From: an uncultured Clostridia bacterium
Lineage (GTDB): Bacteria; Bacillota; Clostridia; Christensenellales; Pumilibacteraceae
Length of the DNA: 64,000 bases
Direction of reading: 5' to 3'
Assembly (NCBI GenBank): GCA_944363615.1
Contig: CALVUQ010000006.1
Span: 1 to 64,000 of the forward strand
The position numbers and the translations under genes are program-made. The first letter of the stretch is position 1. Each line of letters begins with the position of its first letter. Below, piece after piece: positions 29,013 through 53,242 of this stretch. The notes beneath the pieces were generated by a model. It saw nothing but the letters and a program-made list of their open reading frames with translations, searched no databases and was not told the origin of the DNA.

Positions 29013-29018
29013 AGTAGA

Positions 29019-32966: not shown

Positions 32967-33671
32967 TTAAAAATCCTCCCCTTTTACCACACATTTGCCG
33001 ACGTTTTTTAATGCGACGTCTACAACCCTGTCCAGTCTTTCCGCCGTAGCCGAATCCTTTAAGGCATCGCCATGTGTGATCACTGCATAAATTGCCACTG
33101 CTTCGTCCGCGTCGGAGGGAGCAAGCCCGTAAAGCGCATAATTGCTGTCCGTAAAATACTCGTAGCCGCTTGCAGTGTATACGTTCAGCGCCTGTTGCGG
33201 AATAACCGTATCGACAGAACGGTTTGATATCATCCCTTGAGTGTTGAAAAACTCGTGTTTGAACAAATTGTCGCCGAAGCCAGCAGCGTGCAGACTTACG
33301 CTTAATGCGGCGTCGTTTTCAAACTTTGCCGTTACGTTTGCCGAATTTCCCGATCTGAACACCGTTACTTTATTAACTTCGCTGCAGAAACAGTTTTCGG
33401 CGATAAGAAGCTCACGGAACAGTAACGCGTCCAATGCAGCGTTATCCACCGAATAACCCGTCATGGCGCAAGGCCGGCCCAGAATTTCACGCTTTAAGGT
33501 AAGCCCGAGAATTTTAGGATGCTCCAGAAAGGAAAACAAAGGCGCGCTTTTCCCGTTCCACTTTATAATCTTATATCTTTTTCCCTGCAGTATTTCGTAA
33601 TCGGGCAGAACTTGTTTTCTCAAAGCGAAAAGCTTTTTTACGCCCTCTTCAACCGTATATACTTTTTCCAT
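32967..33671 (-). CDS. Unknown protein resembling a stand-alone Gfo/Idh/MocA C-terminal domain
   Basis: A 234-residue cytoplasmic protein I do not recognise by name. Residues ~105-150 (ANVTAKFENDAALSVSL and HEFFNTQGMISN) look like the open-faced sheet of the Gfo/Idh/MocA C-terminal domain, where F.ng....l and ..GtkG.i are usual; no Rossmann nucleotide fold precedes it. Start ATG shares a base with the preceding stop (TAATG) and has GAAGGAG. It is encoded directly before a complete Gfo/Idh/MocA gene, so it may form a heteromer with that enzyme. This is inference from pattern only. Confidence 0.55.
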   Translation of the reverse strand: MEKVYTVEEGVKKLFALRKQVLPDYEILQGKRYKIIKWNGKSAPLFSFLEHPKILGLTLKREILGRPCAMTGYSVDNAALDALLFRELLIAENCFCSEVNKVTVFRSGNSANVTAKFENDAALSVSLHAAGFGDNLFKHEFFNTQGMISNRSVDTVIPQQALNVYTASGYEYFTDSNYALYGLAPSDADEAVAIYAVITHGDALKDSATAERLDRVVDVALKNVGKCVVKGEDF

Positions 33672-35625: not shown

Positions 35626-37677
35626 TTAAAGCGCCGATCTGAACCCTTCGATAATTTCTTCCATTCCGCCGAAAGTATCCATTCCGAGAATTCCCGCTTT
35701 TTCCACTATGCCTGCAAATTCGTCGACAAAAACTCTCAACTCGTCTTTGGTATAAAAAGACTGATACAATGCAAGCTGAAGATATCTGTAAGGTACGGAC
35801 TCTACGTCCACACGGAATTTAAGAAGCTCATACCTTTCGGGGTCGGAATCCTTTTTTTGCTCGATCGCCGCATACGCACGGCTGAATATTTCATCTACGT
35901 TAAGCATGTATCCGCGCGGGAAATTCTTGGTATTTATGTATGCTTCGTGAGAGTGCGCCTTCCATCCGAATTCCTTGTTGAGATAATTCATGTAGTGTAA
36001 TGTGGTATATTCAAGATATTCTTCCATCATTGGCGCGGCTTCGTCATAATAAACGCTTATCGCTTCATGCATAAGGCTGCGATAATCCTCGTTGACGTTC
36101 CACAAAAGTCTTGAACGCACATAATTGTCTATCGTAACAAACGAAGTGTTGCCGAAAGTGCGGCAGCCTTGATGAAAAACGTCTATATAGCCGTAATCGT
36201 AATATGCTTTAATATTGTCGTAAGCGGACATCCACTGCGGGAAAGGCGCAAGCATCTCAACGAAATTTATGCGATAATCCCATACCGCAAAGTTTGTTGC
36301 AACCGCTTTCCAGCCGTTCATGGCGTTATACGAAGCAATGTTGTTTTTCTCGTCAAGAAGCGGATAAAGGTAATAATCGCTTATGGGTGCGTACCTTATG
36401 ACTATGTTGTCCCTTGCAACCACCGACGGGTCGACGGGCGTCCAGACGGGTTTACCGTTTTCGTCCGTGCTTTTCACCGTAGGCGGATCCACTATGGACA
36501 TGTATGCAAACGTCGTAAGATATATTTCCCTCTCGGGACAGTTCTGAAGCCGCCACTTCTCCACCTCATCCGCAACCGCGTTTGCAAACCTCAGGGCTAC
36601 GCCCGAACGGCCGTATTTTTTAACGTCCGCGGTGCATTGATCGCAACTGCAGAAAACCGAGTTGTCGCTCATGCCCAGCTGGAAAAACGATTTGTCCGTT
36701 TCCACGGCGATATAGTTGTTTATGAGATTGTAGACGAACGTCCAGAACATTCCGTGCGGAGCCGAAGCGCTGTTATAACCCGCTTCGCTCCAGTCGCCTT
36801 TTTCGTATTCGTCCTTAGAGTACAGCGCTTTTGTATAGCATATCTGAGGATTGGTAGCCCCGCTGCCGCCCACACCGCCGACGTACCAATCGGGATGAGA
36901 AGCGCGGTAAACGTCGTAAGGAATTATCTGAAGCGCCAGCGACTGGTCGTGAAGCGACGCCCACCAAGTACCCTCGCCGTATTTTCCGCCGCCGGCGGTC
37001 GCGTCGTAACCGTTATTGTAAAGTCTTGCGGCGTTTTGCGGATCCTGCAAAGTATCGTAATTGTAAACGTATCTGTTCAGAAAATCCGGCCAATCTTCGT
37101 ATTTAAAGTTTTTCAGTTTAATACCTGTGGTTTTGTAATCGCCCGTCCTTATCTCGGTAGGAGCGTAATACATATAATCGATCTGCTCTTCCAAAAATCT
37201 GTAGGAGCCGTATAAAATTCCCGAAGTATTGGGCGCGACGATAAGTACGGCGTCCTTATAAGATTCGATACGGAAACCGTTTCTTGTAAGATCGCCTCTT
37301 GTATAAGTAATCCCCGAAGCGTCTGCAATCGAAGTAGCGCCGAGCGAAATAAATTTAGTATTATCGCCTATATCCGTTTCGCTTTCATAAACGACGGGCA
37401 GCATTACGTTTGATGCGTCATAAACGCGTTGCTGGATTTCGCTTGCGGCATATGAATGGGTAGGAGTAAATTCGGCCGGTAAAAGGATGGCATAATCTGT
37501 AGTGCCGTCGGGTTCGGTCAAAAACACGTCGGTGTCCGTAATCGTCTGATTTCTGCCGTTTGCTTTATCGGGAACGTAAGGCGTCTGCTCTTTATTACCG
37601 TTTCCGCAAGAAAACACCGAAACCGACAATATTACCGCAAGAAGCGTGCAGACAATTTTTTTGATTGCATTTTTCAT
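35626..37677 (-). CDS. DUF4838 domain lipoprotein, secreted paralogue (glycosidase-like)
   Basis: A 683-residue homologue of the next gene with a lipoprotein signal peptide (lipobox SVFSC, Cys24), so it is anchored outside the membrane. After a short linker come the GH67N/GH20b-like domain (residues ~60-205) and the DUF4838 barrel (~205-660), again with the SDN...CSCDQC segment. Residues 237-432 are nearly identical to the cytoplasmic copy. Likely a carbohydrate-active enzyme working on a surface-bound or polymer substrate while the paralogue finishes the imported product. Start ATG with AGAGGTG. Confidence 0.82.
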   Translation of the reverse strand: MKNAIKKIVCTLLAVILSVSVFSCGNGNKEQTPYVPDKANGRNQTITDTDVFLTEPDGTTDYAILLPAEFTPTHSYAASEIQQRVYDASNVMLPVVYESETDIGDNTKFISLGATSIADASGITYTRGDLTRNGFRIESYKDAVLIVAPNTSGILYGSYRFLEEQIDYMYYAPTEIRTGDYKTTGIKLKNFKYEDWPDFLNRYVYNYDTLQDPQNAARLYNNGYDATAGGGKYGEGTWWASLHDQSLALQIIPYDVYRASHPDWYVGGVGGSGATNPQICYTKALYSKDEYEKGDWSEAGYNSASAPHGMFWTFVYNLINNYIAVETDKSFFQLGMSDNSVFCSCDQCTADVKKYGRSGVALRFANAVADEVEKWRLQNCPEREIYLTTFAYMSIVDPPTVKSTDENGKPVWTPVDPSVVARDNIVIRYAPISDYYLYPLLDEKNNIASYNAMNGWKAVATNFAVWDYRINFVEMLAPFPQWMSAYDNIKAYYDYGYIDVFHQGCRTFGNTSFVTIDNYVRSRLLWNVNEDYRSLMHEAISVYYDEAAPMMEEYLEYTTLHYMNYLNKEFGWKAHSHEAYINTKNFPRGYMLNVDEIFSRAYAAIEQKKDSDPERYELLKFRVDVESVPYRYLQLALYQSFYTKDELRVFVDEFAGIVEKAGILGMDTFGGMEEIIEGFRSAL
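36382..36968. repeat. Near-identical tract, copy 2 (gene conversion)
   Basis: Partner of 34448-35034, in direct orientation 1,934 bp away, inside the lipoprotein DUF4838 gene. Confidence 0.95.
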
Positions 37678-37691
37678 ATTGTCACCTCTGC

Positions 37692-40544
37692 TTATTTTTC
37701 CGTCACTTCAATAGCAAACTTAAGCCACTGGGCGTTAAAATCGCTATCGTAAGCATGATAATACACAACGTATTTACCGGGTCTGTCGGGAGTGAAAGTC
37801 ACGCCCGAGTTGTCTGCGTTGTCGGTAGTATTTACTGCGCTTCCGCCGGGATTAGTCACAAGGACGTGTACTTCTATGGCTTCTCCCGCGCTGTTGAGCG
37901 CCGTTGCGCCGGGAAGAATAATTTCTTCGCCGACTTTACCCCACTCCTGCACCGAACCCGACATTGAAATCGTGGGCTTGGTGAGATTGTTGCAATAGAT
38001 ATTTACGGGATAGGCGATACTGTTTCCCGACGCGTCCTGGCCGAATGCCTGCAAAACGTATACGCCGTGATTGGTAGCCGTAAACTGAATCGGTCCGTTG
38101 TGAGAAACTATCACTTCATCATTGTATTTGACCGTGATTGTCGCTTCGCACTTACCGCTGAAAACGTCGAAAAGACGGAATTCGGGCACGTTTACGACAT
38201 CGCCTATATTCACGGAAGTAACAAGTTCGCCCATTATTTTGACTACGGGACGGCTGTTATCTGTCGCAGCGTAGTTGAAGTTAGAGTGCTGACAAAGTGA
38301 GCGAATCTGAATGACCGCATCATTACGCGTAGTTTTAACAATGAGTTTTGCAAATACGTAACCCTCGGTAAAACCGTCGAAAGGTTCGCCGTTGTCGTAT
38401 TCGGTGACCTGAGCTAATTTTTCGCCCAAGTTATACAAAGAACCGTTATTAAACGAAAGCGAAAAAGGCTTTGACACGTCAAATGAACTTTTCACTTCGT
38501 AACTTTTCCCTTCAAAAATGATTTTGCCGGTATAACGCGTACTTCCTTCCATTCTTACGGTTATGCTTTGCGTAATATCGTCTTTATCGGTAAGCACAAG
38601 TTCGGCATATTCCACAGCCTGATATGCGTCACCCGCGTTTTCAACGGTGTCGGGAGAGTTGTTGGTAAACCTTATTTCAAAGTTATCCGCCATCAAAGGA
38701 TTTATAAAGCTTATCGAACCTGCCTTGGAAGTACTGTCGGAACGGAACCTTATTACGTTATCCTGATTGATAACAGTCATATTGTCCGTAACGAAATAAT
38801 CTCTTACATATCTGGCGTCAATGACGTTTATGGAAAATTCTTTGCTTATTACACCCGTACCTTTATGCGCGCGGACTTCCAGCTTAAGTATATTTTCGCC
38901 TGCCGTATCGGAGGAAAAAGACATACTTTCAAGCGCCGTGAATTCCGATTCACCGGGCTTTTTAAGGTATGCGGTAACTATTGCGTCCACGGGTGAAATA
39001 TAAGAATACCAGTCTTCCGCTTTAAACGAAGGTATATCGAAGACATAATTCCTGGCTAATATTTCGGGTATGTACGGCCACTCTACAATAGGCGTGTTAT
39101 TTACGTTTGCCACGCTGTAAAAATCATAGTAAACATAATTTTCAAGATAATCGTAAACAACGTATCTTATACGGTACACGCCTTGTTTGTCTGCAAGAAA
39201 TTTTCCGTTTAAGTCCAAAGTAATTTGTTTTCCGTCCGGGTCCGTAATTTCGACGCGATAACCCTTGCCTACAGTGCCGCCGCTGATTTCCGCGTTAGGG
39301 CAATAAACGTATTCGCCCATGCTGATATTGACGGGCAATTCTCCGTCGAATACCGCCGACAAAGGAACAAGTTTATCCGCTACCGTAATATCAATCAGTT
39401 TTTCGCCTGAATTTCCCGACTTGTCGAAAGCCCGTGCGACTATTGTATAAACTCCGGCCTTATCGGGAATAAAGCTGCCGCCCTCCAAAGCGTATTCCTT
39501 TTCCAAAGCCGTACCGTAATCGTAATAAACTTTTATATCGATTTGTTCCACCACTCCGTCGCAATCGTCGTATGCAAAAATTTCGGGCACGGGGAAAGGC
39601 GTTAATTTTTCACCCTGTACGTTTTCGTCAAAACCTGCATAAGGCTCTATTTGCGGTCCCTCGGTATCGGAAAAATCTTCGCCTAAAAACGCCCCGTTAA
39701 AGGAAAGTATTGCGATTTTTGCTTCTTTCGCCAATAAATCCATGAATCTTAAGGAAACTTTTACTTCGTTTGAAGAAAAGCCGCTCCAAGGTTCGTTGCC
39801 GTTAAGGTCGTCTTTATAGTCAAGGTCGCGTATGACGTGGTGGTCCAGATTACGGCTGGGATAAGCATAAGCTGCGTTCTCGTCAGGATCAAAACTATAT
39901 CCGCCGGCATATTTTGCGCCGTTGAAAATACCGTTAAACGGCTGACGAACCTGTAGTCCGAAGCCTTTCTGAAATGTCCCGTTTAAAAACTTTCCCTGCA
40001 CCGTTTGTCCGTTGCCGCCCGCAAGCGCGCTTGTTTCATAATTGTTGTCCGTCCTGATTATAGTCTGATAAGTAAGGGTTTTTGTGGGATCTGAAACGTC
40101 GGTCAGGACAACTTCTATCCCCGAAAAATCGGTAATCGGAGCCGTGTTTATCGAATTAGGCTTGACGCTTGGATCATAAGAACCGGGTATAACCAGAAAT
40201 TCTATGAAATTAAAGTCTATATCCATCTTATCAAGCCGCAAAATGGGTTGAAACTCAAACGTGGTATCCGATTCGGTTGCGGTAAGCACAAGCGGCTTAG
40301 AGTTTTCAACGGCATATACTTCGCCGTTTCTCGAATACAACAGTGAGTGAAAATCCGAGTTGATTTCCTCATAAGCAACCGTACCGTTTTCCGAAGTCAC
40401 GTAATTTTCAATTGAGAGTGCCGCATTAAGTTTATCCTTAGAAGTATTACCAGGACTTTTTGTACCGACTTTTGCGCATGCAACAAACAGGCAAGAAAAA
40501 ACAAGCAATAAAAGCGCTGAAAACACAAAAATTTTCTTTTTCAT
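37692..40544 (-). CDS. Multidomain lipoprotein with two jelly-roll-like modules and Ig-like repeats
   Basis: A 950-residue lipoprotein (signal peptide, lipobox LFVAC, Cys23). Residues ~60-285 and ~590-755 look like copies of a module also present in the two large surface proteins of this operon, each closing with a W/F-x-GF-x-x-x-x-V strand and a run ending I.I.S.NG or I.I.SL. Between and after are Ig-like/DUF5011-type domains (~293-390, ~395-480, ~765-945) with the recurrent D..G.Y.I...A.D..GN motif. No catalytic motif was found. Its place just after the ABC permeases suggests substrate capture or presentation at the membrane. Confidence 0.8.
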   Translation of the reverse strand: MKKKIFVFSALLLLVFSCLFVACAKVGTKSPGNTSKDKLNAALSIENYVTSENGTVAYEEINSDFHSLLYSRNGEVYAVENSKPLVLTATESDTTFEFQPILRLDKMDIDFNFIEFLVIPGSYDPSVKPNSINTAPITDFSGIEVVLTDVSDPTKTLTYQTIIRTDNNYETSALAGGNGQTVQGKFLNGTFQKGFGLQVRQPFNGIFNGAKYAGGYSFDPDENAAYAYPSRNLDHHVIRDLDYKDDLNGNEPWSGFSSNEVKVSLRFMDLLAKEAKIAILSFNGAFLGEDFSDTEGPQIEPYAGFDENVQGEKLTPFPVPEIFAYDDCDGVVEQIDIKVYYDYGTALEKEYALEGGSFIPDKAGVYTIVARAFDKSGNSGEKLIDITVADKLVPLSAVFDGELPVNISMGEYVYCPNAEISGGTVGKGYRVEITDPDGKQITLDLNGKFLADKQGVYRIRYVVYDYLENYVYYDFYSVANVNNTPIVEWPYIPEILARNYVFDIPSFKAEDWYSYISPVDAIVTAYLKKPGESEFTALESMSFSSDTAGENILKLEVRAHKGTGVISKEFSINVIDARYVRDYFVTDNMTVINQDNVIRFRSDSTSKAGSISFINPLMADNFEIRFTNNSPDTVENAGDAYQAVEYAELVLTDKDDITQSITVRMEGSTRYTGKIIFEGKSYEVKSSFDVSKPFSLSFNNGSLYNLGEKLAQVTEYDNGEPFDGFTEGYVFAKLIVKTTRNDAVIQIRSLCQHSNFNYAATDNSRPVVKIMGELVTSVNIGDVVNVPEFRLFDVFSGKCEATITVKYNDEVIVSHNGPIQFTATNHGVYVLQAFGQDASGNSIAYPVNIYCNNLTKPTISMSGSVQEWGKVGEEIILPGATALNSAGEAIEVHVLVTNPGGSAVNTTDNADNSGVTFTPDRPGKYVVYYHAYDSDFNAQWLKFAIEVTEK

Positions 40545-40560
40545 AATATCTCCCTCATTT

Positions 40561-41457
40561 TTAACCTTTTAATCCGCCTACGGCAACGGCGCCCATAAGT
40601 TTGTTTCTGAAAGCTATGAACAAAAGCAGAATGGGCAAAACCACCAATGCGCACGCAGCCATAAGATAATTGGTGCCGCTTACCGCATTGACATTGCTGA
40701 ACTGGAAAGCATAAAGTCCGTAAGCCGCCATCGGGAACGAAGGCAGATATATCATGGAAGTCTGCCAGTCATTCCAGATTCCTATAAAAGTCATCAGCGA
40801 CAGCGCCAGAATCGTAACTTTGGCAAGCGGAAGCATTATCGTAAACATAACTCTTGCATGGCTTGCCCCGTCTATAAACGCCGCTTCTGCATATTCCCAT
40901 GAAATGCCTTTGAAAGTCGCGTAAAAAATCAGAAAATTGGTGCCCGTAAACGAAGCTTTCATTATAATAAGTCCTAAAACGTTATCGTAAAAACCGATAT
41001 TGTTCATGAGATTTATCATAGAAGGAAGGTTGCCTACGATGGGAATAATCATGGTGACGATAACCGTACTGTAAAGCACTTTCCCGAAGAAAAACTTATA
41101 TTTTGCAACCACATAAGCCGTCACGCAATGCGACAAAGTAGTAACGAAAGTACAGGCAATCGAATAAACGAACGAATTGAGGAACATTTCCGGAAGATAT
41201 ACGTTGCGCGGGGCTCTTCCGTCTGAATAGCTTACTTTTATGAACATCTTTTCAAAAACGTCTATGTAGTTTCTGAATTCCCAGCCGCCGTGATACTTAC
41301 CCGGAAGTCCGAAAGGATTCAGAATAAAATCGACGCGGGTTTTAAGCGAGGATATGAGAACCCATATAAACGGAACGATAAGCGACAGACAATAAAGGAT
41401 AAGCAACACCAAGAAAAGTACGGCAAAAGGCTGACGCGAAATTTTTTCTTTTACCAT
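40561..41457 (-). CDS. Carbohydrate ABC transporter permease (MalG type)
   Basis: A 298-residue inner permease of the CUT1 sugar importer class: six membrane helices, cytoplasmic N-terminus and the EAA loop EYAEAAFIDGASHARVMFTIMLPLAK, here with residues placed as in MalG (EAA...G.......I..P). C-terminal GGLKG is typical. ATG with GAGGAGG. Works with the MalF-type permease and the binding protein encoded just upstream; an ATPase must come from elsewhere. Confidence 0.93.
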   Translation of the reverse strand: MVKEKISRQPFAVLFLVLLILYCLSLIVPFIWVLISSLKTRVDFILNPFGLPGKYHGGWEFRNYIDVFEKMFIKVSYSDGRAPRNVYLPEMFLNSFVYSIACTFVTTLSHCVTAYVVAKYKFFFGKVLYSTVIVTMIIPIVGNLPSMINLMNNIGFYDNVLGLIIMKASFTGTNFLIFYATFKGISWEYAEAAFIDGASHARVMFTIMLPLAKVTILALSLMTFIGIWNDWQTSMIYLPSFPMAAYGLYAFQFSNVNAVSGTNYLMAACALVVLPILLLFIAFRNKLMGAVAVGGLKG

Positions 41458-41472
41458 GTTTTACCCTCCTCT

Positions 41473-42546
41473 TCAGAATTCCGCATTCGTTCCGAATTTT
41501 TCCAGCAGATATTTCGCAAGCAAAGTTATCGGAGCGACAAACAAAGTAAACAGTAATCCCGCGGCGGACGCAAACGGATAATCCGCAAGCTGAGCAGTAT
41601 CGCCCACAACCTTTACGAACAAATAATATCCGTAAGTATACAAATACTGAGGAGCGTTACCGCCGTAAAAAGTATACAAACCCGCCTGATTGGTGAAAAT
41701 TCCGGCAATACCCGTCACAAGGAAGACCGTAATCGTCGGGAAAATCAACGGAACGGTTATCTTCCAGAATTCCTTCCACATTCCCAACCCCTCGAGTTTT
41801 CCGTATTCGATAAGCGAGTCCGGTATACGGCTCATGGCACCGGTATACAGGATTATTCCGCTGCCCAGTCCGAACCAGATATTGTAAAATATTATTACCG
41901 ACCATGCCGTCTGCTGCGATTTAAACAAATCGGGAACGTTTTGCACACCGAACAAATTAAGCAAAGAAGGCACTGCGCGGTCCACGAAATATTTATACAT
42001 TATCGTCATTACTACACTGGACACAATACTGGGTACGTAAAGAAAGATCTTAAACATACCCGAAAGCGGTATCTTTTTGTACACGAAAAAGGAACTCATT
42101 ATATGCAGCGGCATACAGATAAACAAGCCTATGGCATACAGAATAAAAGAGTTCTTTGTCGCAAACTGCAAAGTAAAATCCGTACCTATCTGTCTGATAA
42201 ACTCTTTAAAATGCCCGAATCCTATAAAATGATATTCGCCTGTGGCAATGTCGTACTGTTTGAACGCAAGCAATATGGAGTTTATGTTGACGCCGATATA
42301 GAAAACGCAGAACTGTATTACGGGAATTATAAGCACGCAGAACAAAAACAGATTCTTTGCAAAATTTTTACTTTTAGCCGATCTTATTTTTTTCTTCCTG
42401 TTCTTTTTAAGATTGTACAGCCTTACGGATAAATTGTAAAAGAATAATTTAATCGCTCTGCCGACTTTCCCCATTCGTTCGGAAATTTTTTCCTTTACGG
42501 TCGCTTTTTTCTCTAAATCCGGATTCAAATTTTTTGATTTTCTCAT
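41473..42546 (-). CDS. Sugar ABC transporter permease (MalF type) with basic N-terminal extension
   Basis: A 357-residue CUT1 permease. Residues 1-65 are an unusual lysine/arginine-rich cytoplasmic extension; then six helices, with the EAA-like loop LIEYGKLEGLGMWKEFWKI and VPLIFPT. It forms the heterodimeric channel with the MalG-type permease. ATG preceded by GAGGGATAAATA; genes are 15-24 bp apart in this block, indicating one transcript. Confidence 0.92.
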   Translation of the reverse strand: MRKSKNLNPDLEKKATVKEKISERMGKVGRAIKLFFYNLSVRLYNLKKNRKKKIRSAKSKNFAKNLFLFCVLIIPVIQFCVFYIGVNINSILLAFKQYDIATGEYHFIGFGHFKEFIRQIGTDFTLQFATKNSFILYAIGLFICMPLHIMSSFFVYKKIPLSGMFKIFLYVPSIVSSVVMTIMYKYFVDRAVPSLLNLFGVQNVPDLFKSQQTAWSVIIFYNIWFGLGSGIILYTGAMSRIPDSLIEYGKLEGLGMWKEFWKITVPLIFPTITVFLVTGIAGIFTNQAGLYTFYGGNAPQYLYTYGYYLFVKVVGDTAQLADYPFASAAGLLFTLFVAPITLLAKYLLEKFGTNAEF

Positions 42547-42570
42547 TATTTATCCCTCGGGACCTGTTCT

Positions 42571-44190
42571 TCAGTTGCCAACCGCTATTTTACTCAGCCA
42601 CACTTCTTCGCTCATGGTTTCCCTTAACGCGGTCATGTATTCGTCAACGGTAAGTGTCGGATAAGTTCTGAAATTTCCTATAGGATCGGACAGAGTTTTA
42701 CCGTCCCTTGTGTTGGCCTTCCATTTCCAGTCGCTCTCAAAAAACTGCTCGTTTTTATAAATATAGGGATTGGCGCAGGTATGATAAACTATATCGCTGT
42801 TACCGCCGAACGCACCCCAAAGCGACTGATAATAATCGGGCATTGCGGCAAGCTGCTCGTCTTTCATTTCGTAATCGAGCGCTCTGGGCATACCGGAATA
42901 CTGAGTGCACATCTGAAGCGCTTCGTCAGACTGAAGATATGCAAAGAATTTTTTTGCACCTTCGGCTTCTTTTGCGTTCTTTTTCACGAAAACCGAAGTA
43001 TAGAACGAAGAAGCAAAATATGTAGCTTTAGTCGCCGGAGAGCCTTCATACTTCGGGAAAGGCATAATGCCGAACCTTCTGTTGGCATATTCGTCCGACA
43101 TCGCCGCCATATCGTTGAACGTGTCTTTTGCTTCGTTGTACCAATGCGCGCCGTCGATGATAAACGCAACGCGCTTACCAAGTCCCAGACTTTCGTTGAC
43201 TACTGAAAGGAGGTATTCGGATTGCGTCGTCATAAACGACATGGAAGCGGTGCCCGATTGCGAATGATAATAATCGGGATTGTTTGCAAGCGTGTAGGCA
43301 AATTCCAGTGCTTTTTTCCTACCCGTCATATTCATAAGCAGATATGCCTTTTGCGGAGTAATCTTGGTGGGTTCGCTGTCGCCTTCAAACGTGTATTCGC
43401 CTGACATCGTTTTAACGAGGTCGAAATTAGCCTTGCCTTCGTAAGCGGCGTACATAGAATAAATCAGATTACTTGTATAGGACGTCTGGTCGGACCAGAT
43501 GAAAGGCGTTACTCCTTCATTGACCATATAATTGCACAGATTCCAGAACTCGTCAATCGTAACGGGCAAACCGTCATCGTAAGTGCCGGCGATTCCGTCC
43601 TGTCCCACGCTTTTGGGCTGAGTCCCTTCTATTCCCTTGGTCCAGTTGCCCGAAGCGTCATAATAGAAGCCCTTTTTCTCAAAAAGGTCTATATCGTAGG
43701 AAATGCCGTAAATTCCGCCCCCGAAAGGCGCCGCAAAGTATTTGCCGAGGTTGTTGTATCCCTTATAGAATTCGTCGAGATCTTCCCACATCTTATCGGC
43801 GATACTCTCCTCGTCGGAAACGCCTATTCCGAGGTCCTTTAACGGGGTAGTCATTTCGGTCGTGACGTCCATCAGAAGGTCCTGAGAAAGGTAATCGTAT
43901 AGATATACCGGCGCGACGAAAACGTCCTGAGGCAACACGTCTATCGTCCCAAGAAGAGTGGACATGTAATATTTTTTGTCGCCGTCCACCAAGACCTTGT
44001 ATTGAGGATTTTTCTTTTCGAATTCAGCCGCAGCCTTATCCAGCCATTCCTGTCCCCAACCGCCGTTGTAAATACCGACCTGTATAACAATTTTGTCGCC
44101 GTATTGATTGGGTCCTTTCGGTCCGCAACCGACAAACGACCACAGCGCAAGCATTGCCACGATAAAAACAGCCATGAATTTTTTAAGCAT
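42571..44190 (-). CDS. Extracellular sugar-binding lipoprotein of ABC transporter
   Basis: A 539-residue solute-binding protein (CUT1, cluster B). Lipobox SFVGC gives Cys22 as the lipidated residue. Seen: IQVGIYNGGWGQEWLDKAAAEFEKKNP at the start of the mature lobe (only partly quoted motifs: EWLDKAAAEFEK), a central hinge region with ISYDIDLF, and aromatic residues common in sugar sites. Longer than maltose-binding protein, as often seen for oligosaccharide binders. ATG with AAGGAGA. First gene of the transporter block; preceded by a 77-bp gap holding a hairpin. Confidence 0.9.
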   Translation of the reverse strand: MLKKFMAVFIVAMLALWSFVGCGPKGPNQYGDKIVIQVGIYNGGWGQEWLDKAAAEFEKKNPQYKVLVDGDKKYYMSTLLGTIDVLPQDVFVAPVYLYDYLSQDLLMDVTTEMTTPLKDLGIGVSDEESIADKMWEDLDEFYKGYNNLGKYFAAPFGGGIYGISYDIDLFEKKGFYYDASGNWTKGIEGTQPKSVGQDGIAGTYDDGLPVTIDEFWNLCNYMVNEGVTPFIWSDQTSYTSNLIYSMYAAYEGKANFDLVKTMSGEYTFEGDSEPTKITPQKAYLLMNMTGRKKALEFAYTLANNPDYYHSQSGTASMSFMTTQSEYLLSVVNESLGLGKRVAFIIDGAHWYNEAKDTFNDMAAMSDEYANRRFGIMPFPKYEGSPATKATYFASSFYTSVFVKKNAKEAEGAKKFFAYLQSDEALQMCTQYSGMPRALDYEMKDEQLAAMPDYYQSLWGAFGGNSDIVYHTCANPYIYKNEQFFESDWKWKANTRDGKTLSDPIGNFRTYPTLTVDEYMTALRETMSEEVWLSKIAVGN

Positions 44191-44247
44191 TTTCTTTCTC
44201 CTTGCAATTATTTATTTGTTTTTTATATAAACCCTCATTAGCGACGT

Positions 44248-44274
44248 CGAATGAAAAAATCGTTTTATCATTCG
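44248..44274 (-). other. Intercistronic hairpin before the binding-protein gene
   Basis: CGAATGA / TCATTCG perfect 7-bp stem whose one arm includes the stop codon of the surface-protein gene. Could act as an mRNA stabiliser or partial terminator between surface and transporter genes. Confidence 0.4.
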
Positions 44275-47012
44275 TTTTCCGGCTTATTGCCGGCACGCCC
44301 TATAACGCCTTTTTTTCTTAATACAATCAGCGTGACAAGCGCCGCAATAAGCAATACAAGCACTCCTCCGCCCACGCTTAAGCCGATAACCAAACCTTTA
44401 CTTACAGCGCTGACTTCTATGTTGTAAGATATAATTTGCTGATTTCCGGCTATATCCGTTGCGGAATATATAATTTCGTATGTACCTTTTTCTTCCGCGT
44501 CAAATCCGCCGTTATAAACATCCACTTCCTGCCCGTCTTTCATCACTTTAACGACTGAATTTATGTTAAGTCCCGATTTATCGGTGACAACAGCTTCGGC
44601 CAATTTGACGAAATCACCCACTCGCGCGGTCTCTGTCTTACCGTTAAGAGTTATTTCCGGCTTTTCGGTGTCGTTTACGGTAATGTAATACGAGCCGCTG
44701 ATACTTTCTCCCAAAGTCAGGTCGACAAACGAATATCTTATTTCATAAAGCCCGATAGAATCGGTAGTCATTCCTTCTTCACCGGCTTTCTGATAATTGA
44801 AATAAACTTTCGCGCTGATTTGAGAACTGTCGACTTTGTTTCCGTAAAAATCAACGATTTCGGGTTTAAGGTTATTTAATACCGATCCGACGGTAACTTC
44901 ACGTTCGGGGACGTTTACAACCTCGTACCAGGCGGGTTTAACTTCGATTTCAATGGAGCGCATCGTTTTATAATAGCCGTTATCGACTGAAGCGGAGATT
45001 ACATAAACCCCTTTTTCCTCGGGAGTAAACACATATTCCCCGCGTTTAAACGCTTCGGTAATATCCGTAACTGTGCCGTCGCCTGATTTTATAAGTTCCA
45101 CCACCATATCTTCTTCGGACGAGAAAAAGCCGTAACGGAAAATTATTTCTTTACCGACCAAAGCCTTAACCTTTACTATATCGTCGGTTATTTGAGCACC
45201 TTGTTTTAGTCTGACGTTTAACGGAAGGGCGTTCATTTCAAGTTCCGGAAATTGTTGCGAAAATACATAAATACGTCTTTCCGCCGCTGCCGTGTACGTA
45301 ACTAAGGGATTTTCAACAGACGCGTATTTAGCCGAGTAATGGATTTCATACACGCCTTCCCGGTCAAATTTTACCGAACTTAAGTCTTCCGCCGTACTTC
45401 CGTCCGGACATGATATTTTTATACTTCCGTCCGAAGCCGAAATTTCGCTTTTCTCAAAAATATCGTAAATTATCAAATCTTGCAGTGTCGGTACGGGAAC
45501 AGCCTCGCCGAGTGCATAAAACATGCTTTTTTCTATTCCGTCATTAAAATACACATAACTTCTTGAAACGGTAACCTCAATCTTACTTTCTACCTCTCTT
45601 AAAAGCAAATCTTTTGTGGAATAGGTCAATGTGTACTTTCCTTCCGAACCGGGTTTAAAAATCAAATCTTTACCTATGTTAAGATAATCTTGTCCCCCGT
45701 CGGGCAAACCGGGGCCGGATACGTTGACATTAAGATTCTGCTTGGGCTTCTGCGCGTCGTTTTCGACATAACCGCCAAGTTGGATATCCTCTCCTACGTA
45801 AACGGTTTTTTTGCCCAATTCATCATCGGCCAACACTATTTGCGCGTCGGGTAAATCGGCAAAAACTTCAACCGTCACTACATTTCCGGTAAGTTCGTCT
45901 TTCCCGTCTTCGGGATTGAAATCCGCTTCATACAAAAGACTGTAAACGCCTTCTTCGTCGGGAGTGAAAGACGCATCCGAAGAATAGCGGGTTGCGTCGA
46001 CATACGGAGCCGAAGTTAAATCTTCGCCCTTATAAATGCTGTAAAAACAGTCCTCGGGCGTAATTCCGTGATTAGCGGCGGACAAAACATAAGGCCTTGG
46101 AATGTTGTATTCATAACCGACTAAACCGCTGTAAAGCACTTCGGCGTTAATGACGTCGGAATAAAAACCTGTAAAAAGCATTTTTGTTTCTGCAGTGACG
46201 CCGTTTAACGAAAACGATACATTTACGTTTTTCATCTCCTCCGCCGTCCAAGGTGTCCACGCGACGTCCGTTGCCCCGTCGGTTACGTTGCGAAGAAGAT
46301 AACGGTAGGCGTCGATATCCTCGGTTTCGGGGTTATTGTCGATGTCAACAAAATCAAATCCGATCTTTCCGTTATTGACGTTATCCACCATTTTGTCGAG
46401 ATAAAACGTAAAGTTACCGTCATCCGTCCCAAGATATACGTTAACGGGTTCCATGGGTAAAGCGCTGCTGTTTTTTACGGTGCCGTCGGAAAGAGCGTAA
46501 TTTCGATTCACGGTTTCGCCGTTACGCTTAAAAGGAATGGCTCCTACGGCGGCGTCCGTTCCGTTTTCAACGGGTGTAACCTTTCCGTCATACCAATTGT
46601 GCGCGGCAAAAACCTGTCCGTCGGCTGCAACGCTTAAGCCGTATTCGCCGTTATAATTGCTTTCCTCCGTACCTCTTGACCAGCTTTTTATTCTTACCGT
46701 TTTTCCGCCGGATTCAAGCGTAACAGTAAAGTCAAGATAGGTATAGGCGCCGTTTCTGCCCACCCACGGCAGCAACGAAAACAAGGGCTTTTCGGGCGTG
46801 ATTCCCGTAAGGTCGATTGTCCCTATGTCCCAGTTTGCGTCCTCGTCGGCGGTAAGCAGCAATCCACTGTACTCAGACTCTTCGGGTATCGCTATATTGC
46901 CGTTCTGAACGGAAGAAAGCGCATATGCCTTGCCGTTTGCCTCAGGCGCCGATAAAACGACGCCGAAGACAAACGCGAAAATTATAAGAAAAACCAAGTA
47001 TTTTTTCTTCAT
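44268..47012 (-). CDS. Membrane-anchored surface protein with jelly-roll-like module and Ig-like repeats
   Basis: A 914-residue exported protein: signal peptide (~1-29), one N-terminal module (~45-290) clearly homologous to the first module of the 1586-residue neighbour (shared SGLLLT, DLTGITPEKP, LPW, NVYL, YRYLLRN, WTPWTAEE segments), then about six Ig-like/cadherin-type domains (~300-865) with the recurring G.Y.I.Y...D motif, a membrane helix (~873-895) and a basic tail. No enzyme motif and no LPXTG. Likely a glycan-binding cell-surface component. ATG with AGAGGTT, two bases after the previous stop. Confidence 0.82.
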   Translation of the reverse strand: MKKKYLVFLIIFAFVFGVVLSAPEANGKAYALSSVQNGNIAIPEESEYSGLLLTADEDANWDIGTIDLTGITPEKPLFSLLPWVGRNGAYTYLDFTVTLESGGKTVRIKSWSRGTEESNYNGEYGLSVAADGQVFAAHNWYDGKVTPVENGTDAAVGAIPFKRNGETVNRNYALSDGTVKNSSALPMEPVNVYLGTDDGNFTFYLDKMVDNVNNGKIGFDFVDIDNNPETEDIDAYRYLLRNVTDGATDVAWTPWTAEEMKNVNVSFSLNGVTAETKMLFTGFYSDVINAEVLYSGLVGYEYNIPRPYVLSAANHGITPEDCFYSIYKGEDLTSAPYVDATRYSSDASFTPDEEGVYSLLYEADFNPEDGKDELTGNVVTVEVFADLPDAQIVLADDELGKKTVYVGEDIQLGGYVENDAQKPKQNLNVNVSGPGLPDGGQDYLNIGKDLIFKPGSEGKYTLTYSTKDLLLREVESKIEVTVSRSYVYFNDGIEKSMFYALGEAVPVPTLQDLIIYDIFEKSEISASDGSIKISCPDGSTAEDLSSVKFDREGVYEIHYSAKYASVENPLVTYTAAAERRIYVFSQQFPELEMNALPLNVRLKQGAQITDDIVKVKALVGKEIIFRYGFFSSEEDMVVELIKSGDGTVTDITEAFKRGEYVFTPEEKGVYVISASVDNGYYKTMRSIEIEVKPAWYEVVNVPEREVTVGSVLNNLKPEIVDFYGNKVDSSQISAKVYFNYQKAGEEGMTTDSIGLYEIRYSFVDLTLGESISGSYYITVNDTEKPEITLNGKTETARVGDFVKLAEAVVTDKSGLNINSVVKVMKDGQEVDVYNGGFDAEEKGTYEIIYSATDIAGNQQIISYNIEVSAVSKGLVIGLSVGGGVLVLLIAALVTLIVLRKKGVIGRAGNKPENE

Positions 47013-47013
47013 T

Positions 47014-50000
47014 TTAACCTCTTCTCTTTATGACAAACACTGCGCACAACATTGCAAATACCGAAGCCAGGGCAGACGCAGCTTTTCCGCAGCCGCTCTT
47101 TTTATCGCCGTCATCGGGATTTTCCGTAGTATCTGGCGCAGGAGTTGCCTCTGTTTTTTCCTGCCACTTTGCCGTAAGCGTCAAATCATTTTCCGCCGCG
47201 CCGCCGAAAACGTATTTCTCGTCCCCGATGTACCAGCCGACAAAATCATAACCTTCCCTGACGGGATCGGCGGGAGCGATAACGGATTCCCCTATGACGA
47301 AGGTCTTGTCGTCCACCGCACTGCCTCCGTTACTGTCGAAAACTACGGTTATAGAATTCCTTGTATAAATTGCTATAATCGTCATGTCATCGGTGACAAG
47401 GGTATCGCCCGAAACGTTCCACCCAGCCGAATAGTTAGCCTTTGGGGGAATGGCGGGTAATCCGATATCGGAAACCGCGGTACCGTAATCGACATTTTCG
47501 ATTACCGTTTCTGTATTGTCTATAATTACGGTAACGTCATATTTGTTTATATCCCATTTTGCAAAAATAACAGTATCTTCGTTAATGGGCTGCTTAAAAT
47601 CGAATTCACTCGTAAAGCTTGCGTCGGCATACCATCCCGTAAAAGTATAACCGGTTTTTACGGGAGATGCGGGTTCGTCGCAAATTTCTCCCGGGACAAT
47701 TATTTGTACGGGAATGTCGCAGTTTTCAAAAGTTACTTTCTTGCCGTCGTCCCATTTGGCGTACAAGGTAGAATTTTCGAAACGGATGAAATCCTCTACG
47801 GTAACTTTACTGCTCTCCGTATAATCCGAATCGGTGTACCATCCCGAAATATACTTGTTTTCAGGCGAATTTTCGGGAGTTTTATTGTCGAATATGCTGT
47901 TCAGTTTTGTCGTCAGCGCAGCTGTCTGCGAATAGGTATAATCAAACGTTTCGTTCTGAACGCCGTCTACAACAAAATCGAAAGTAACGGTGTAAGTTTT
48001 TTCCTTAAAGCGTGCAACCAAAGTAATGTCTTGCGCGGGATAAACAAACGGACCGGAAACCACTTTTTCGCTTCCGCTGTACCAGCCGTCGAATTCGAAA
48101 TACGCATATTCCTCGTTTACGGACAAATCCAAAGTCGCGTCAGGCAGCGTCAGAACGTCGTCTTCCACAGTGAACGAAGTAGTGTATTCTCCCGAAAGAT
48201 CGGCATTCTCGACCTGATAGTTAATCGTATAACTTATGGGACTTACAACAATTTCCAAAGCTATCAAATCGCCTTCGGCTGTGCCGTTTACGTAAGAATA
48301 ATTTACAGTTCCGCCGTTTACCGCGTCGATTTGGTCAAGAACGGATACGCCGCCCACCTTAAGCGTTTTTATTTCGTAACCCTTTTTGGGAACAACCGAG
48401 ATACTGTGATTGCCGTCAAAGGCTGATTTTTCGGGAAGCTTGGTTATATCAATGCCGTCCACGGTGACTACGGCGTTTTCAACAGTCGATTGAGGCTTTA
48501 CGAATGCAGGTTTAACCGTAAGCGGAATTTCGTAAGAGCCGAGGCTGTTTTCGTAAGCAATCTTATAGGTGCCCGCCTTTATTTTTTCGGCGGGAATTAC
48601 AAGCCCTTCAACGTAATCGGTTTTTGCGACAATTTCCGTTCCGTCGGAATAACTTACAGAAATTTTTTCATTTTCGGGATTTATTTCACCCGAAAAAACG
48701 GTGGAAACTTTAATTCCGTCCAAAGAAACCTCGTCGCCCGCAAGAGGTTTTTGCGAATAACTTATTATGACGTTGTCGGGAATGACGTCGCCCTGAGCGG
48801 TAAAGTCCGCACCTCTTATTCCCATAATACAGAACCTTGTGTACAAAGCGCTTTTGCCGTCTGCTTTATTCCTGTAATTGGGCATATCCACACCTGCGGA
48901 AATCCTAACTTTGCCGCTTTCAAAGCCGTCGAAAGTATTTGTGCCGTTTGCTGAATCGGAAGCAAAATCACGCACGAAGTAAACGTCGGGTCCGTATGCC
49001 ACATAAAGTCTTTGCGTGAAATTGTCGAAAATGACTTCAATGGGATATGCGTCCGCGCCGCTGATTTTAGAGCCCGGTATCTCAAGACCCGTATTCCAAT
49101 CGGGCACGTCTATTCCTTCGTTAACTGAAAGTTTGACCATATTGCCGTCGGCATCGTTCCATGTCGCATAGCGTACCGCTTCATACGAAGAATTGTTTTC
49201 CCATGTGCCGACAGCCTTTACCCTTACGCTGCTGCCCGCTCCGCTTGTGACCATAAACAAAGATATGTAAGTATCTTCGTCTTCGGCATCGTAAATATTT
49301 ACTCTGAAAGTAATGGCCGCATTGCCGTTTTTGTATTCAGCGCCGGTTGCAGGGAAACCTATTTTAATAAGAGAATCGTAATCGCTTGAAGATCTGTAAG
49401 AAGCAGAAGTGATGTCCACGTCAAACGCTGTTTTTACTCCCAGTCCGGTTTTACCGCGCCCTTCCCACGCGTAAAGGTGTCCCGTGGCGTCTACCGAATC
49501 GGCGTTAGCGGTTTCGACCATAATTCCGCCGCCCTTATAGGAAACGTAATACGGAATAGGCTCGTAATACAAATCCTTCACTTCGCCTTCATTGACGAAA
49601 AGCTTGTCGAATTTTTGCACCAAAGCTTCTTTATCGCTGCCCAAAGCTGTCTTAACCGTATAGGACGCAATAACTTTGTCGCCATTCATAAACTTCACTG
49701 CATATTCGTCCAGTTTGTCTGCGGTAAAACTGTTGCCGACAATCTCGACCGGAGTTCCGTTTGAATCGGTAACCGACACCGTAAAATCGGTATAAGTCTT
49801 CCATCCCTCAAATAAGTCATAAACCTGAAGCGTATCGGGGATGTCAACCGATACCGACAAAGTCTGCGGATCGAGTATTTCGACGGTATCGCTTAAAGCC
49901 TTTATTTTATTGCTTGCAGTGCCGGCTGTACTCATGTTGCCTGATTCGTCGGTTTTAACTTTGTAGCCGTCTACCTGTTTTATCATTACCGACGCGCTTT

Positions 50001-51774
50001 CGTCGCTTAAATCTCCGTCGTCGTCGCTGTCGTGAAAGTCAACGGTCACCGACATGGTAACAGGAGTTTCGCCGAATCCCATAAAGGCAGGTAATATACC
50101 GCCGTAAGTGTCGTCAAGGTCAAGAATTTTCCATCTGTACAATGGCTTTTCCGCCGTACCGAAATTTATCTGCGTATTATGCTTGATTCTGCCGCTGTCG
50201 GTATAAAGCGCATTTTCTTCCGCCGAATAATAAATCCTGTAAACAGGGTCAAGATACTGATTGCCGTTTATCGCGTTTCCGTTTTCGTCAACATGATCGT
50301 ACGCCTGCACGAATCCGTCAAATCTTATGGGCGAAGAACCTGCGGACTGTGCCGAAGTCAGACTGTTGTCGGTCAAATACTGAGTGTAATATTGGCCGTC
50401 GGTATAAAGACTTGTTTTGACGCGGAACATTACTTCGCCGGCTGAGTCGTTAACGGGTCTGTATCCGAGTTTTACGCTTAAGACGTTTTCTCCGTCAGTA
50501 AAATCGATATAAACCGCATCTACATCGCGGGTAAATTTTGCGTCGGCAGCCGCACAAGCAGCATTAAAAGCCTCTTCGTCCAGCACGCCGTCCACCGTAT
50601 AATCGTTTTTGAAAACCAAATTATATTTTTCGCCGTACTGCTTGGGGAAAAGCGCCACTTCGGCAAGCGGCGTGAATACGTCGTTGTCGGCAAGATATAC
50701 CTGCTTTCCCACGGTAAGCGTTTTGTCGTCCGAAGTAAGCGTTTTGGTAATTCCGTCATAAGGTGACGTTTTTATTCCTTTAATAACGCGCATTGAGGAA
50801 ACATCGGTTACAGGCTCGCCGTTGACGGACGTTATAAGTAATTTACTTTCACTCTTGACGCCGCTCAACGCAACTGTTATTTTGACATTCTTTTCTTCTT
50901 CCTCGGTAAAAGGCGTCCAGATCGAAGTATCAATAGAAGAACCTGCAGATTCCGTAAGATTGCGCATTTTATATCGATATGTGGTTTCTCCGTTATATGT
51001 AAACGCCTGTTGTCCTGTTTTAGATAATCCCCATGCCGCCGCAATCATATCGGTATAAACGGTGTAATCGGAGTTGCTTTTGTCAAGATAAATATTGATG
51101 GGCATGGGCATCATCGTACTGTTGTAAGTCGAAGGAGTTTCCTCCACGGTATCCGAAAACGCAAATCTGCGGTTTACATACGACCCGTCAAGTCTGAAAG
51201 GCATAGTACTGCAAATTGTCGGCCCGGTGGCGCACACATACGCACCGTCGTAAGAGCTCCACCCAACAGCCCTCTGATTTTCGCCGTAAGCGCCAAGCCC
51301 CATTTCGAAATTATCGGGTCTGGAAAAACTGGTAACGCTGAAACTTTTGTCTCCTGAAGAAAAAGTAACGATAAAGTTGTTATAAGAAGAACCCGCTTGC
51401 TGGTCCCCTAACCGTTTCATCCAAGGCATAATTCCTATAATCGGTTTTTCGGCAGTAGCGCCGCTTAAATCGTATACGCCCAAATCAAAACGCGCAAAAG
51501 AATCGGTAGTAGTCAAAAGTGCGCCGCTGTAAGTAACGGGCTCCAACGAACTGCCGCTTTCATCCGTCACGGTAACATCTTCCCGGCTTATGCTTCCGTT
51601 AATTTCGCCGGCGGTATATTCCTGACCCCCCTGAATAAACTCAGAAGCGGGCACCACCGTTTCCGCTGCCGCGGTTCGGGGAAAAGGTATTGCCGACAAT
51701 GCCAACACCAAAGGCATAAGCAATGAAATCATAATGCAAAAGATATACCTTTTACCTTTACTTGTCTTGCTCAT
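47014..51774 (-). CDS. Giant surface protein: three jelly-roll-like modules, InlB B-repeats, C-terminal anchor
   Basis: A 1586-residue exported protein and the first gene of the operon. Order: signal peptide (~1-37), modules at ~80-320, ~390-603 and ~740-995, a small beta domain (~1000-1090, bacterial Ig/group-3 like), a linker, five InlB B-type repeats (~1180-1537, with GY.F.GWY and LYAKW motifs), and a C-terminal hydrophobic helix with KRRG. The modules alternate strands and end in a conserved W/F..F....V strand; they resemble concanavalin-type lectin folds, but the assignment is inference. ATG with AAAGGAGGG. Probably the primary substrate-binding surface protein. Confidence 0.83.
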   Translation of the reverse strand: MSKTSKGKRYIFCIMISLLMPLVLALSAIPFPRTAAAETVVPASEFIQGGQEYTAGEINGSISREDVTVTDESGSSLEPVTYSGALLTTTDSFARFDLGVYDLSGATAEKPIIGIMPWMKRLGDQQAGSSYNNFIVTFSSGDKSFSVTSFSRPDNFEMGLGAYGENQRAVGWSSYDGAYVCATGPTICSTMPFRLDGSYVNRRFAFSDTVEETPSTYNSTMMPMPINIYLDKSNSDYTVYTDMIAAAWGLSKTGQQAFTYNGETTYRYKMRNLTESAGSSIDTSIWTPFTEEEEKNVKITVALSGVKSESKLLITSVNGEPVTDVSSMRVIKGIKTSPYDGITKTLTSDDKTLTVGKQVYLADNDVFTPLAEVALFPKQYGEKYNLVFKNDYTVDGVLDEEAFNAACAAADAKFTRDVDAVYIDFTDGENVLSVKLGYRPVNDSAGEVMFRVKTSLYTDGQYYTQYLTDNSLTSAQSAGSSPIRFDGFVQAYDHVDENGNAINGNQYLDPVYRIYYSAEENALYTDSGRIKHNTQINFGTAEKPLYRWKILDLDDTYGGILPAFMGFGETPVTMSVTVDFHDSDDDGDLSDESASVMIKQVDGYKVKTDESGNMSTAGTASNKIKALSDTVEILDPQTLSVSVDIPDTLQVYDLFEGWKTYTDFTVSVTDSNGTPVEIVGNSFTADKLDEYAVKFMNGDKVIASYTVKTALGSDKEALVQKFDKLFVNEGEVKDLYYEPIPYYVSYKGGGIMVETANADSVDATGHLYAWEGRGKTGLGVKTAFDVDITSASYRSSSDYDSLIKIGFPATGAEYKNGNAAITFRVNIYDAEDEDTYISLFMVTSGAGSSVRVKAVGTWENNSSYEAVRYATWNDADGNMVKLSVNEGIDVPDWNTGLEIPGSKISGADAYPIEVIFDNFTQRLYVAYGPDVYFVRDFASDSANGTNTFDGFESGKVRISAGVDMPNYRNKADGKSALYTRFCIMGIRGADFTAQGDVIPDNVIISYSQKPLAGDEVSLDGIKVSTVFSGEINPENEKISVSYSDGTEIVAKTDYVEGLVIPAEKIKAGTYKIAYENSLGSYEIPLTVKPAFVKPQSTVENAVVTVDGIDITKLPEKSAFDGNHSISVVPKKGYEIKTLKVGGVSVLDQIDAVNGGTVNYSYVNGTAEGDLIALEIVVSPISYTINYQVENADLSGEYTTSFTVEDDVLTLPDATLDLSVNEEYAYFEFDGWYSGSEKVVSGPFVYPAQDITLVARFKEKTYTVTFDFVVDGVQNETFDYTYSQTAALTTKLNSIFDNKTPENSPENKYISGWYTDSDYTESSKVTVEDFIRFENSTLYAKWDDGKKVTFENCDIPVQIIVPGEICDEPASPVKTGYTFTGWYADASFTSEFDFKQPINEDTVIFAKWDINKYDVTVIIDNTETVIENVDYGTAVSDIGLPAIPPKANYSAGWNVSGDTLVTDDMTIIAIYTRNSITVVFDSNGGSAVDDKTFVIGESVIAPADPVREGYDFVGWYIGDEKYVFGGAAENDLTLTAKWQEKTEATPAPDTTENPDDGDKKSGCGKAASALASVFAMLCAVFVIKRRG

Positions 51775-52153: not shown

Positions 52154-53242
52154 ATGAAACTTAATTATCTTTTCGAACAAGTGAAAAAAGACATTGCTAC
52201 GGGTGTTTTCGGAAAAAGCGGATCGCGCTTTTCGGACGTAAAATCTCTTGCCGAACAATACGACATTTCTTACGTTACGGCAATAAAGCTTATTGCGGAG
52301 TTGAAAAACTCCAGAGTTCTGCTGCCCATAGGGAATAAAAATTTTGTAATTAACGGCCCCTACGGCACAAATTCCGAACTTTATAAAATAATAAATAAAA
52401 CCCACGAAAAAAAATTGGGCATACTTGTCCCCTCTTTTACCAATCCTTTCATCGCCGAAATGACGGAAGAGCTTAACGACACTATTTTACGCTGCGGATT
52501 TTTGCCCGAAATTGCACTTGCGCACGACGAAGACGAAATCGCGATTCTGGAGCATTTTGCCAAGTCCGGTTGCGCAGGCGTTTTCAGTTTTCTTAAAAAT
52601 CAGACCCCGGGCGTTTTAGATTATTACTCGCGTTTCCCTCTTCCTATAGTAATTGTAGGAAAAAATCCCGTTGACATAAATGTTTCTTCGGTGACGGCGG
52701 ACAATTATACTGCCGGCATGGTTGCAGCCAAACATTTTTTGGAATACGGATTCAAAAATTTCGCTTACGCAACGACATACAACAATATTTCGGTTAACGA
52801 CGACAGGCTTAACGGCTTCAGAGACGGATTGAAAAAAGCAGGCATTACTCTCCCTAACGAGAATATTTTCGCATTAGATCAAAACACCTCCAAAAATAAA
52901 AATATGATTGTTTCCTTTTTGTCAAAAAGAAAACAACGCACCGGTTTTTTCTGTTATCACGACATTGTGGCGGCTCAACTTATAATTATTGTTCAGAACG
53001 CAGGATACAGTATTCCCGGCCATGTGGGCATAATAGGTTACGACAATCTTTCCATTGTAACAGGCGAAACAAAGCTGACTACGTTTGCATATTCTTTTAA
53101 TAAAATCGCCGAAAACGCAGTTTCTCTCATGAAGGAGAAATTGCTTAAGCCCAACTCGCCCAAAAACACAATCAATATTCAGACGGTGCTTATAGTAAGA
53201 AATTCCACCAACCGGGACCTTAACAAAAACTACCAATTATAG
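52154..53242 (+). CDS. GntR/LacI hybrid transcriptional regulator (AraR-like)
   Basis: A 362-residue regulator: an N-terminal GntR winged helix (residues ~3-68, with FSDVKSLAEQYDISYVTAIKLI) joined to a LacI/periplasmic-binding-type effector domain (~85-350; KLGILVPSFTNPF, GVFSFL, VTADNYTAGMVAAKHF, GIIGYDN). This architecture is that of AraR-like sugar repressors. Divergent from the large glycan operon with a shared control region, so it most likely represses that operon until its sugar is bound. ATG with AAGG six bases upstream. Confidence 0.9.
   Translation: MKLNYLFEQVKKDIATGVFGKSGSRFSDVKSLAEQYDISYVTAIKLIAELKNSRVLLPIGNKNFVINGPYGTNSELYKIINKTHEKKLGILVPSFTNPFIAEMTEELNDTILRCGFLPEIALAHDEDEIAILEHFAKSGCAGVFSFLKNQTPGVLDYYSRFPLPIVIVGKNPVDINVSSVTADNYTAGMVAAKHFLEYGFKNFAYATTYNNISVNDDRLNGFRDGLKKAGITLPNENIFALDQNTSKNKNMIVSFLSKRKQRTGFFCYHDIVAAQLIIIVQNAGYSIPGHVGIIGYDNLSIVTGETKLTTFAYSFNKIAENAVSLMKEKLLKPNSPKNTINIQTVLIVRNSTNRDLNKNYQL

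Follow-up and report, generated by a model that had tools for sequence, protein, structure and literature searches.

Modules with a predicted concanavalin-A-like fold in three exported proteins of a sugar-transport operon from an uncultured Clostridia bacterium

Three exported proteins encoded in one operon of an uncultured Clostridia bacterium carry a segment that an earlier note, made by eye, took to be a repeated module in about six copies. The locus raises the question of whether these copies are one family, what fold they adopt and what such modules might do beside a sugar transporter. The window, by which we mean the whole 64,000-nucleotide stretch of DNA analysed, represents contig C6 of a 1.82 Mb MAG that is 95% complete.

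The operon and its six module copies

The segment 37692–51774 is transcribed from the minus strand in the order C, B, solute-binding (SBP) lipoprotein, two ABC permeases and A. Conceptual translation of C (47014..51774; 1586 aa) gives a signal peptide, three modules (C1-C2-C3) and four Listeria-Bacteroides repeats (Pfam Flg_new, 2.5e-31), and that of B (44268..47012; 914 aa) a signal peptide, the module B1, Ig-like domains with a weak Pfam match to Bact_surface_Ig-like, and a C-terminal transmembrane anchor. Protein A (37692..40544) is a 950-aa lipoprotein with the layout M1, Ig-like, M2, Ig-like, where M1 and M2 denote the two module types. The SBP (42571..44190) matches SBP_bac_1, NgcE (1.7e-5) and, below cut-off, TIGR03850 (9.8e-15); sugar ABC permeases 1 (41473..42546) and 2 (40561..41457) both match BPD_transp_1 (1.8e-10 and 8.2e-13 respectively). 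The scanned genes of the cluster include no evident ATPase for the transporter.

Downstream of A lie a secreted DUF4838 protein (35626..37677, minus strand; PF16126, 1.5e-41), a second DUF4838 protein with no evident signal peptide (33671..35593, minus strand; PF16126, 4.1e-46), Gfo/Idh/MocA and xylose-isomerase-like proteins, a NagB-like protein and NagA. The secreted DUF4838 protein is a putative glycosidase with a GH67-like N-terminal domain (Glyco_hydro_67N, 1.7e-4, just under cut-off). The two adjoining DUF4838 genes share a 793 bp patch at 93% DNA identity (36202–36994 versus 34270–35060) and are otherwise distantly alike, which points to recent gene conversion between paralogues of which one is secreted and the other seemingly not. 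The C-terminus of C (encoded at 47014–47110) consists of KKSGCG, a hydrophobic tail and RR, and the same tail is found in its paralogue C' (contig C15, near 16163). Both tails resemble MYXO-CTERM-like sorting tails, with a weak match to NCBIfam MXAN_6652 (E 0.03), and among the genes of this genome C and C' alone carry the codon pattern in a tail of this kind. A further protein with leucine-rich and Listeria-Bacteroides repeats is encoded at 15478–18051.

All six of the module copies proposed earlier were found, close to the residues first given for them and all on the minus strand. Within C, C1 spans residues 81–327 (50794..51534; genome profile search with a profile that includes C1), C2 residues 376–611 (49942..50649) and C3 residues 776–996 (48787..49449), the latter two by paralogue-profile match, hhalign and genome profile search. 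B1, a homologue of C1, covers residues 44–292 of B (46137..46883; genome profile search). In the lipoprotein A, A1 (type M1) occupies residues 79–291 (39672..40310; hhalign and an AlphaFold2 model) and the shorter A2 (type M2) residues 591–754 (38283..38774; M1/M2 profile match).

A paralogous operon on contig C15 of the same genome has the same order, C'-B'-SBP-P1-P2-A'-DUF4838. Identities between the two operons are 49–54% for the permeases, 37% for the SBP, 33% for DUF4838 and 26% for A, while the C15 modules in C' and A' are more alike (Ap0 and Cp1 are 41% identical).

Relationship between the copies

The first copies of C and B had been described as clearly homologous and the others as more weakly alike, and this holds: BLASTP joins C1 and B1 (E about 2e-30 to 5e-30; 34–35% identity), no other pair among the six segments was recovered by pairwise BLAST or phmmer, and the remaining copies need profiles. 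Identity between copies is mostly 15–25%. With a single pair joined by pairwise BLAST, and with all of the regions beta-rich and similar in composition, the likeness seen by eye could be convergent, between beta-sandwich or Ig-like repeats of unrelated origin.

A profile made from six modules of the C15 operon, with no window sequence in it (the paralogue profile), finds five of the six copies, B1 being the one missed. Domain E-values are 4e-11 for A1, 2e-8 for C3 and 1e-5 for C2, with weak values for C1 (0.012) and A2 (0.04). Searched against all neighbouring ORFs, this profile matched, beyond these copies, only A-, B- and C-type proteins down to an E-value of about 0.3, and it also matches the first and second modules of A-like proteins in other genomes. 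Iteration raised A1, A2, C1, C2 and C3, and did not raise B1.

Two further profiles drew on 25 homologues of A encoded in other genomes, M1 being built from their first modules and M2 from their second. Profile–profile comparison, the check that had been proposed for these segments, joined M1 to M2 in hhalign at 97.5% (E 5e-12). With the M1 profile hhalign gave 98.7% for A1, 92% for C3, 88% for C2 and 96% for a module of B', the C15 counterpart of B, and the M2 profile gave 99% for A2; taken over the profiles lacking window sequence, C2 scored 88–95% and C3 92–93%. Ig-like regions of the same proteins, used as controls, reached 6% or less in hhalign, and stayed under 2% in the comparison with M1. 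Reversed and shuffled controls reached at best 1.6 bits with the M1 profile (versus 65 for A1, 27 for C3 and 11 for C2) and 9 bits with the paralogue profile (versus 35 for A1, 28 for C2, 19 for C3 and 14 for C1). A2 rests on the M2 profile, at 76 bits against 2.3 for the best control.

Since profiles free of window sequence find the segments and the Ig-like, reversed and shuffled controls score far lower, convergence is refuted for A1, A2, C2 and C3. A whole-genome profile search gave 13 copies, six in the window and seven on C15, with none elsewhere; the profile included rows from both operons, so that the informative part is the absence of copies elsewhere. This restriction to two paralogous operons also argues against convergence, which we regard as highly improbable. 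The sequence comparisons give good support to the view that the six segments are one divergent family.

C1 and B1 have the lowest profile scores. C1 is the weakest of the five copies found by the paralogue profile; against the M1 profile the two give 0.5–36% in hhalign; and against the paralogue profile their best value is 71%, for C1 over 52 columns, with B1 at 36% or less. They also lack the LTDxxD and DLD motifs of A-type modules, with LTD..D replaced by SSGD/ESGG and DLD by NLT/NVT. C1 and B1 might on these grounds be a separate ConA-like family, leaving A1, A2, C2 and C3 alone as the module family, but we consider this unlikely. B and B' are homologous, and the module that scores 96% with M1 is a family-typical one at the N-terminus of B', in the same place as B1; aligned to the other copies, C1 retains the closing pattern W..F......V.....LLITSVNGEPV; and the predicted fold of C1 is the same as that of the family. 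The paralogue-profile value for C1, the position shared by B1 and the B' module, the mutual homology of C1 and B1 and the predicted fold together indicate that both probably belong to the family.

Predicted fold and sequence signature

The AlphaFold2 model of A1, for which the input comprised 22 homologues, all from loci recovered with DUF4838 as bait, is all beta with a pLDDT of 80.6 and a pTM of 0.84. Foldseek against the PDB placed seed lectins first (E 5.6e-4), with low TM-scores (0.3–0.4). The top VIA-align match was a legume-lectin-like domain (Z 10.5, rmsd 3.5, 166/238 residues), followed at Z 9–10 by the Emp46p CRD, the GH16 enzyme VvEG16, PL7 lyases, SraP, YwfG and GH43 C-terminal domains; all structures matched to A1 by VIA-align are ConA-like.

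The C1 model (pLDDT 71.8, pTM 0.80) shares several of its top VIA-align chains with A1, at Z 8.2 over 150 residues with an rmsd of 3.5, a Z near 8 being at the edge of the tool's informative range. It is only partly independent of the A1 model because A-type modules are present in the C1 alignment. The Foldseek list for C1 is not significant by itself; coronavirus spike N-terminal domains topped it with low probability and were taken as fold-level noise, and a search of a viral structure library gave no significant match. The jelly roll suspected in the earlier note is thus supported by both models, which fall among concanavalin-A-like lectins and glucanases; the two modules modelled (A1 and C1) did not give unrelated folds. 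We predict with fair confidence that the module is a concanavalin-A-like two-sheet jelly roll.

The module had not been recognised as a named family, and none was found here: neither the copies nor their homologues matched any Pfam or NCBIfam family at cut-off or any PDB sequence. Pfam models for LamG, CBM, GH16 and PL7 gave no match at gathering score for the module regions of A, B and C or their homologues. Lectin models of Pfam gave a single match among 28 modules (Lectin_leg-like, E 0.07) and none among 23 A-type homologues. Neither the module nor the SBP-permease-permease-A-DUF4838 cassette is described in the literature searched.

A-type modules carry the signature LTDxxDxxN (in a strand hairpin), A-x-x-x-GQ, GLE, HxNxxYG, YD, DLD and WxGFxxGEVxLS, in which D89 and D180 never vary and D182 hardly does. 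At the sequence level D-x-[YFW]-x-N, the Ca2+ motif of L-type lectins, is not conserved: 3 of 23 sequences have it, and their sites do not correspond; in YwfG a Ca2+ site of the type D-x-Y-x-N...D is made by Asp152, Tyr154, Asn156 and Asp166 (PMC9815576). With this motif unconserved and no Pfam lectin match at cut-off, the module, although lectin-like in predicted fold, is by the sequence tests made no L-type lectin.

SraP of Staphylococcus aureus (PMC4047093) and YwfG of Lactococcus lactis (PMC9815576), at Z 9.2–9.5 to the A1 model, are likewise long surface proteins with a ConA-like jelly roll close to the N-terminus, ahead of a beta stalk of several domains. The modules differ from them in sequence (6–9% identity), in lacking the Ca2+ motif, in occurring as several copies per protein, and in belonging to an ABC glycan-uptake operon rather than to a lone adhesin.

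Given that GH16 and PL7 enzymes and GH43 accessory domains, which share the predicted fold (Z 9–10), are among the best structural matches, and that acidic residues are so strongly conserved in A-type modules, some modules could themselves be glycan-cleaving enzymes of the GH16 or PL7 jelly-roll type. This seems improbable to us: the modules have no match to any GH or PL family by sequence and no recognised catalytic signature, the conserved acidic residues are lost in C1 and B1, their presence two or three times in one chain, on Ig-like stalks, suggests binding modules, and the cassette already has a putative glycosidase in DUF4838.

Possible role and distribution

A ConA-like fold alone shows no function, as it includes enzymes and protein-binding domains. 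Taken with the gene context, the predicted fold suggests that the module serves to catch sugar chains on the cell surface. We lean towards the reading that the family, mounted on stalks, binds glycan there non-catalytically and serves a locus for the uptake of an amino-sugar glycan. Modules on the Ig-like stalks of the exported proteins (with Listeria-Bacteroides repeats as well in C) would keep glycan close both to the secreted, glycosidase-like DUF4838 protein and to the transporter formed by the SBP and permeases; DUF4838 would trim the held glycan, the SBP and permeases would import the trimmed product, and NagA and NagB would process it as an N-acetylated amino sugar. An amino-sugar substrate is pointed to by the far end of the cluster (27861–29783), where NagA, N-acetylglucosamine-6-phosphate deacetylase (27861..29012, minus strand), reaches the equivalog cut-off of TIGR00221 (2.6e-67; 227.4 bits versus 225.65) and the adjacent NagB-like protein of the glucosamine-6-phosphate deaminase family (29019..29783, minus strand) matches PF01182 (2.2e-18) and, below equivalog cut-off, TIGR00502 (2.7e-35). 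We infer both that the glycan is of amino-sugar type and that the modules cooperate with DUF4838. As the module surfaces differ much, the copies need not share a ligand.

The modules alternate with Ig-like domains, lack the lectin Ca2+ motif and drift fast in sequence, and the C1 model has the SasG A-domain among its structural matches, all of which would suit ConA-fold spacers or protein–protein (adhesion, assembly) domains in long stalks with no sugar role. We find this doubtful, as A-type first modules retain a polar set (LTDxxDxxN, GQ, GxE, H, DLD and WxGF) and protein A, unlike a generic stalk, has stayed with a single transport cassette in many genomes. The evidence for this conservation comes from searches of GTDB genomes with DUF4838 proteins as bait, which gave 31 loci. 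Most lie in MAGs of Clostridia recovered from the gut material of ruminants, horses and other sources, and some in MAGs to which the depositors gave the label Bacilli or Erysipelotrichaceae. Upstream DNA is sufficient at 28 loci, and at 25 of these DUF4838 is directly preceded by an A homologue of two-module layout, which is no unbiased rate since the bait favours relatives of known cassettes; 18 of those 25 have the full order SBP-P1-P2-A-DUF4838.

With the A1 profile, matches were found in 12 of 297 genomes of an order sample, in 2 of 391 of a class sample besides the source genome (both marginal, E 3e-4 and 7e-4) and in none of 398 of a phylum sample besides the source genome. They fall mostly in one order, although the cassettes in MAGs labelled Bacilli or Erysipelotrichaceae indicate that the family is wider than these samples suggest. 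B1, searched against 121 genomes, matched only the source genome and none of 120 relatives, so that the B and C proteins look lineage-specific. From these comparisons protein A looks like the conserved core, and the extra surface proteins B and C look like local elaboration.

Locally the gene content resembles the Gram-positive polysaccharide utilization loci (gpPULs; PMC5320581), which bring together an ABC transporter, a putative degrading enzyme and a transcriptional regulator; the published minimum calls for an enzyme that degrades polysaccharide, together with a transporter and a regulator. The window has the carbohydrate transport system (SBP and two permeases) and a divergent regulator with a LacI-type sugar-binding domain (52154..53242, plus strand; Peripla_BP_3, 2.8e-22; RbsR/PurR-like models), and for the degrading enzyme relies on the putative glycosidase DUF4838 with its sub-threshold GH67-like N-terminus. 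Unlike gpPULs, it has dedicated multi-module surface proteins, A, B and C, that are seemingly non-catalytic; polysaccharide binding in the gpPUL group was proposed to occur via CBMs on GH enzymes (PMC5320581).

If the modules do bind glycan, this would explain how these bacteria hold polymeric glycans ahead of ABC uptake. In Bacteroidota, non-catalytic capture beside the transporter is carried out by surface glycan-binding proteins of the SusD/SusE/SusF type. The proposed role is shared with these, whereas the proteins are unrelated as far as family scans show, the host is Gram-positive and transport is by an ABC system rather than via TonB. We put forward tentatively that A may be a dedicated non-catalytic capture protein with two lectin modules, a standing part of a conserved SBP-permease-permease-A-DUF4838 uptake system in gut Clostridia and Bacilli and a Gram-positive, functional counterpart of the Bacteroidota surface glycan-binding lipoproteins, its modules representing a new ConA-like family without the Ca2+ motif that was also copied onto B and C. 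A is a testable partner for DUF4838, a putative glycosidase family on which the literature searched says next to nothing. With sequences numbering in the dozens, a signature of its own and a fold predicted for it, the module is ready for description as a new domain family, which would help to annotate many 'hypothetical' surface proteins of uncultured bacteria from herbivore and other guts.

Two further arrangements were observed among the relatives of these proteins. A' (1342 aa; L036:12842-16867) has a third, N-terminal module that shares 41% identity with the first one in C', which suggests module shuffling within one operon. In a same-genus genome, an open frame of more than 4000 aa, open at the sequence end (L038:1776-14000), adjoins A-like genes.
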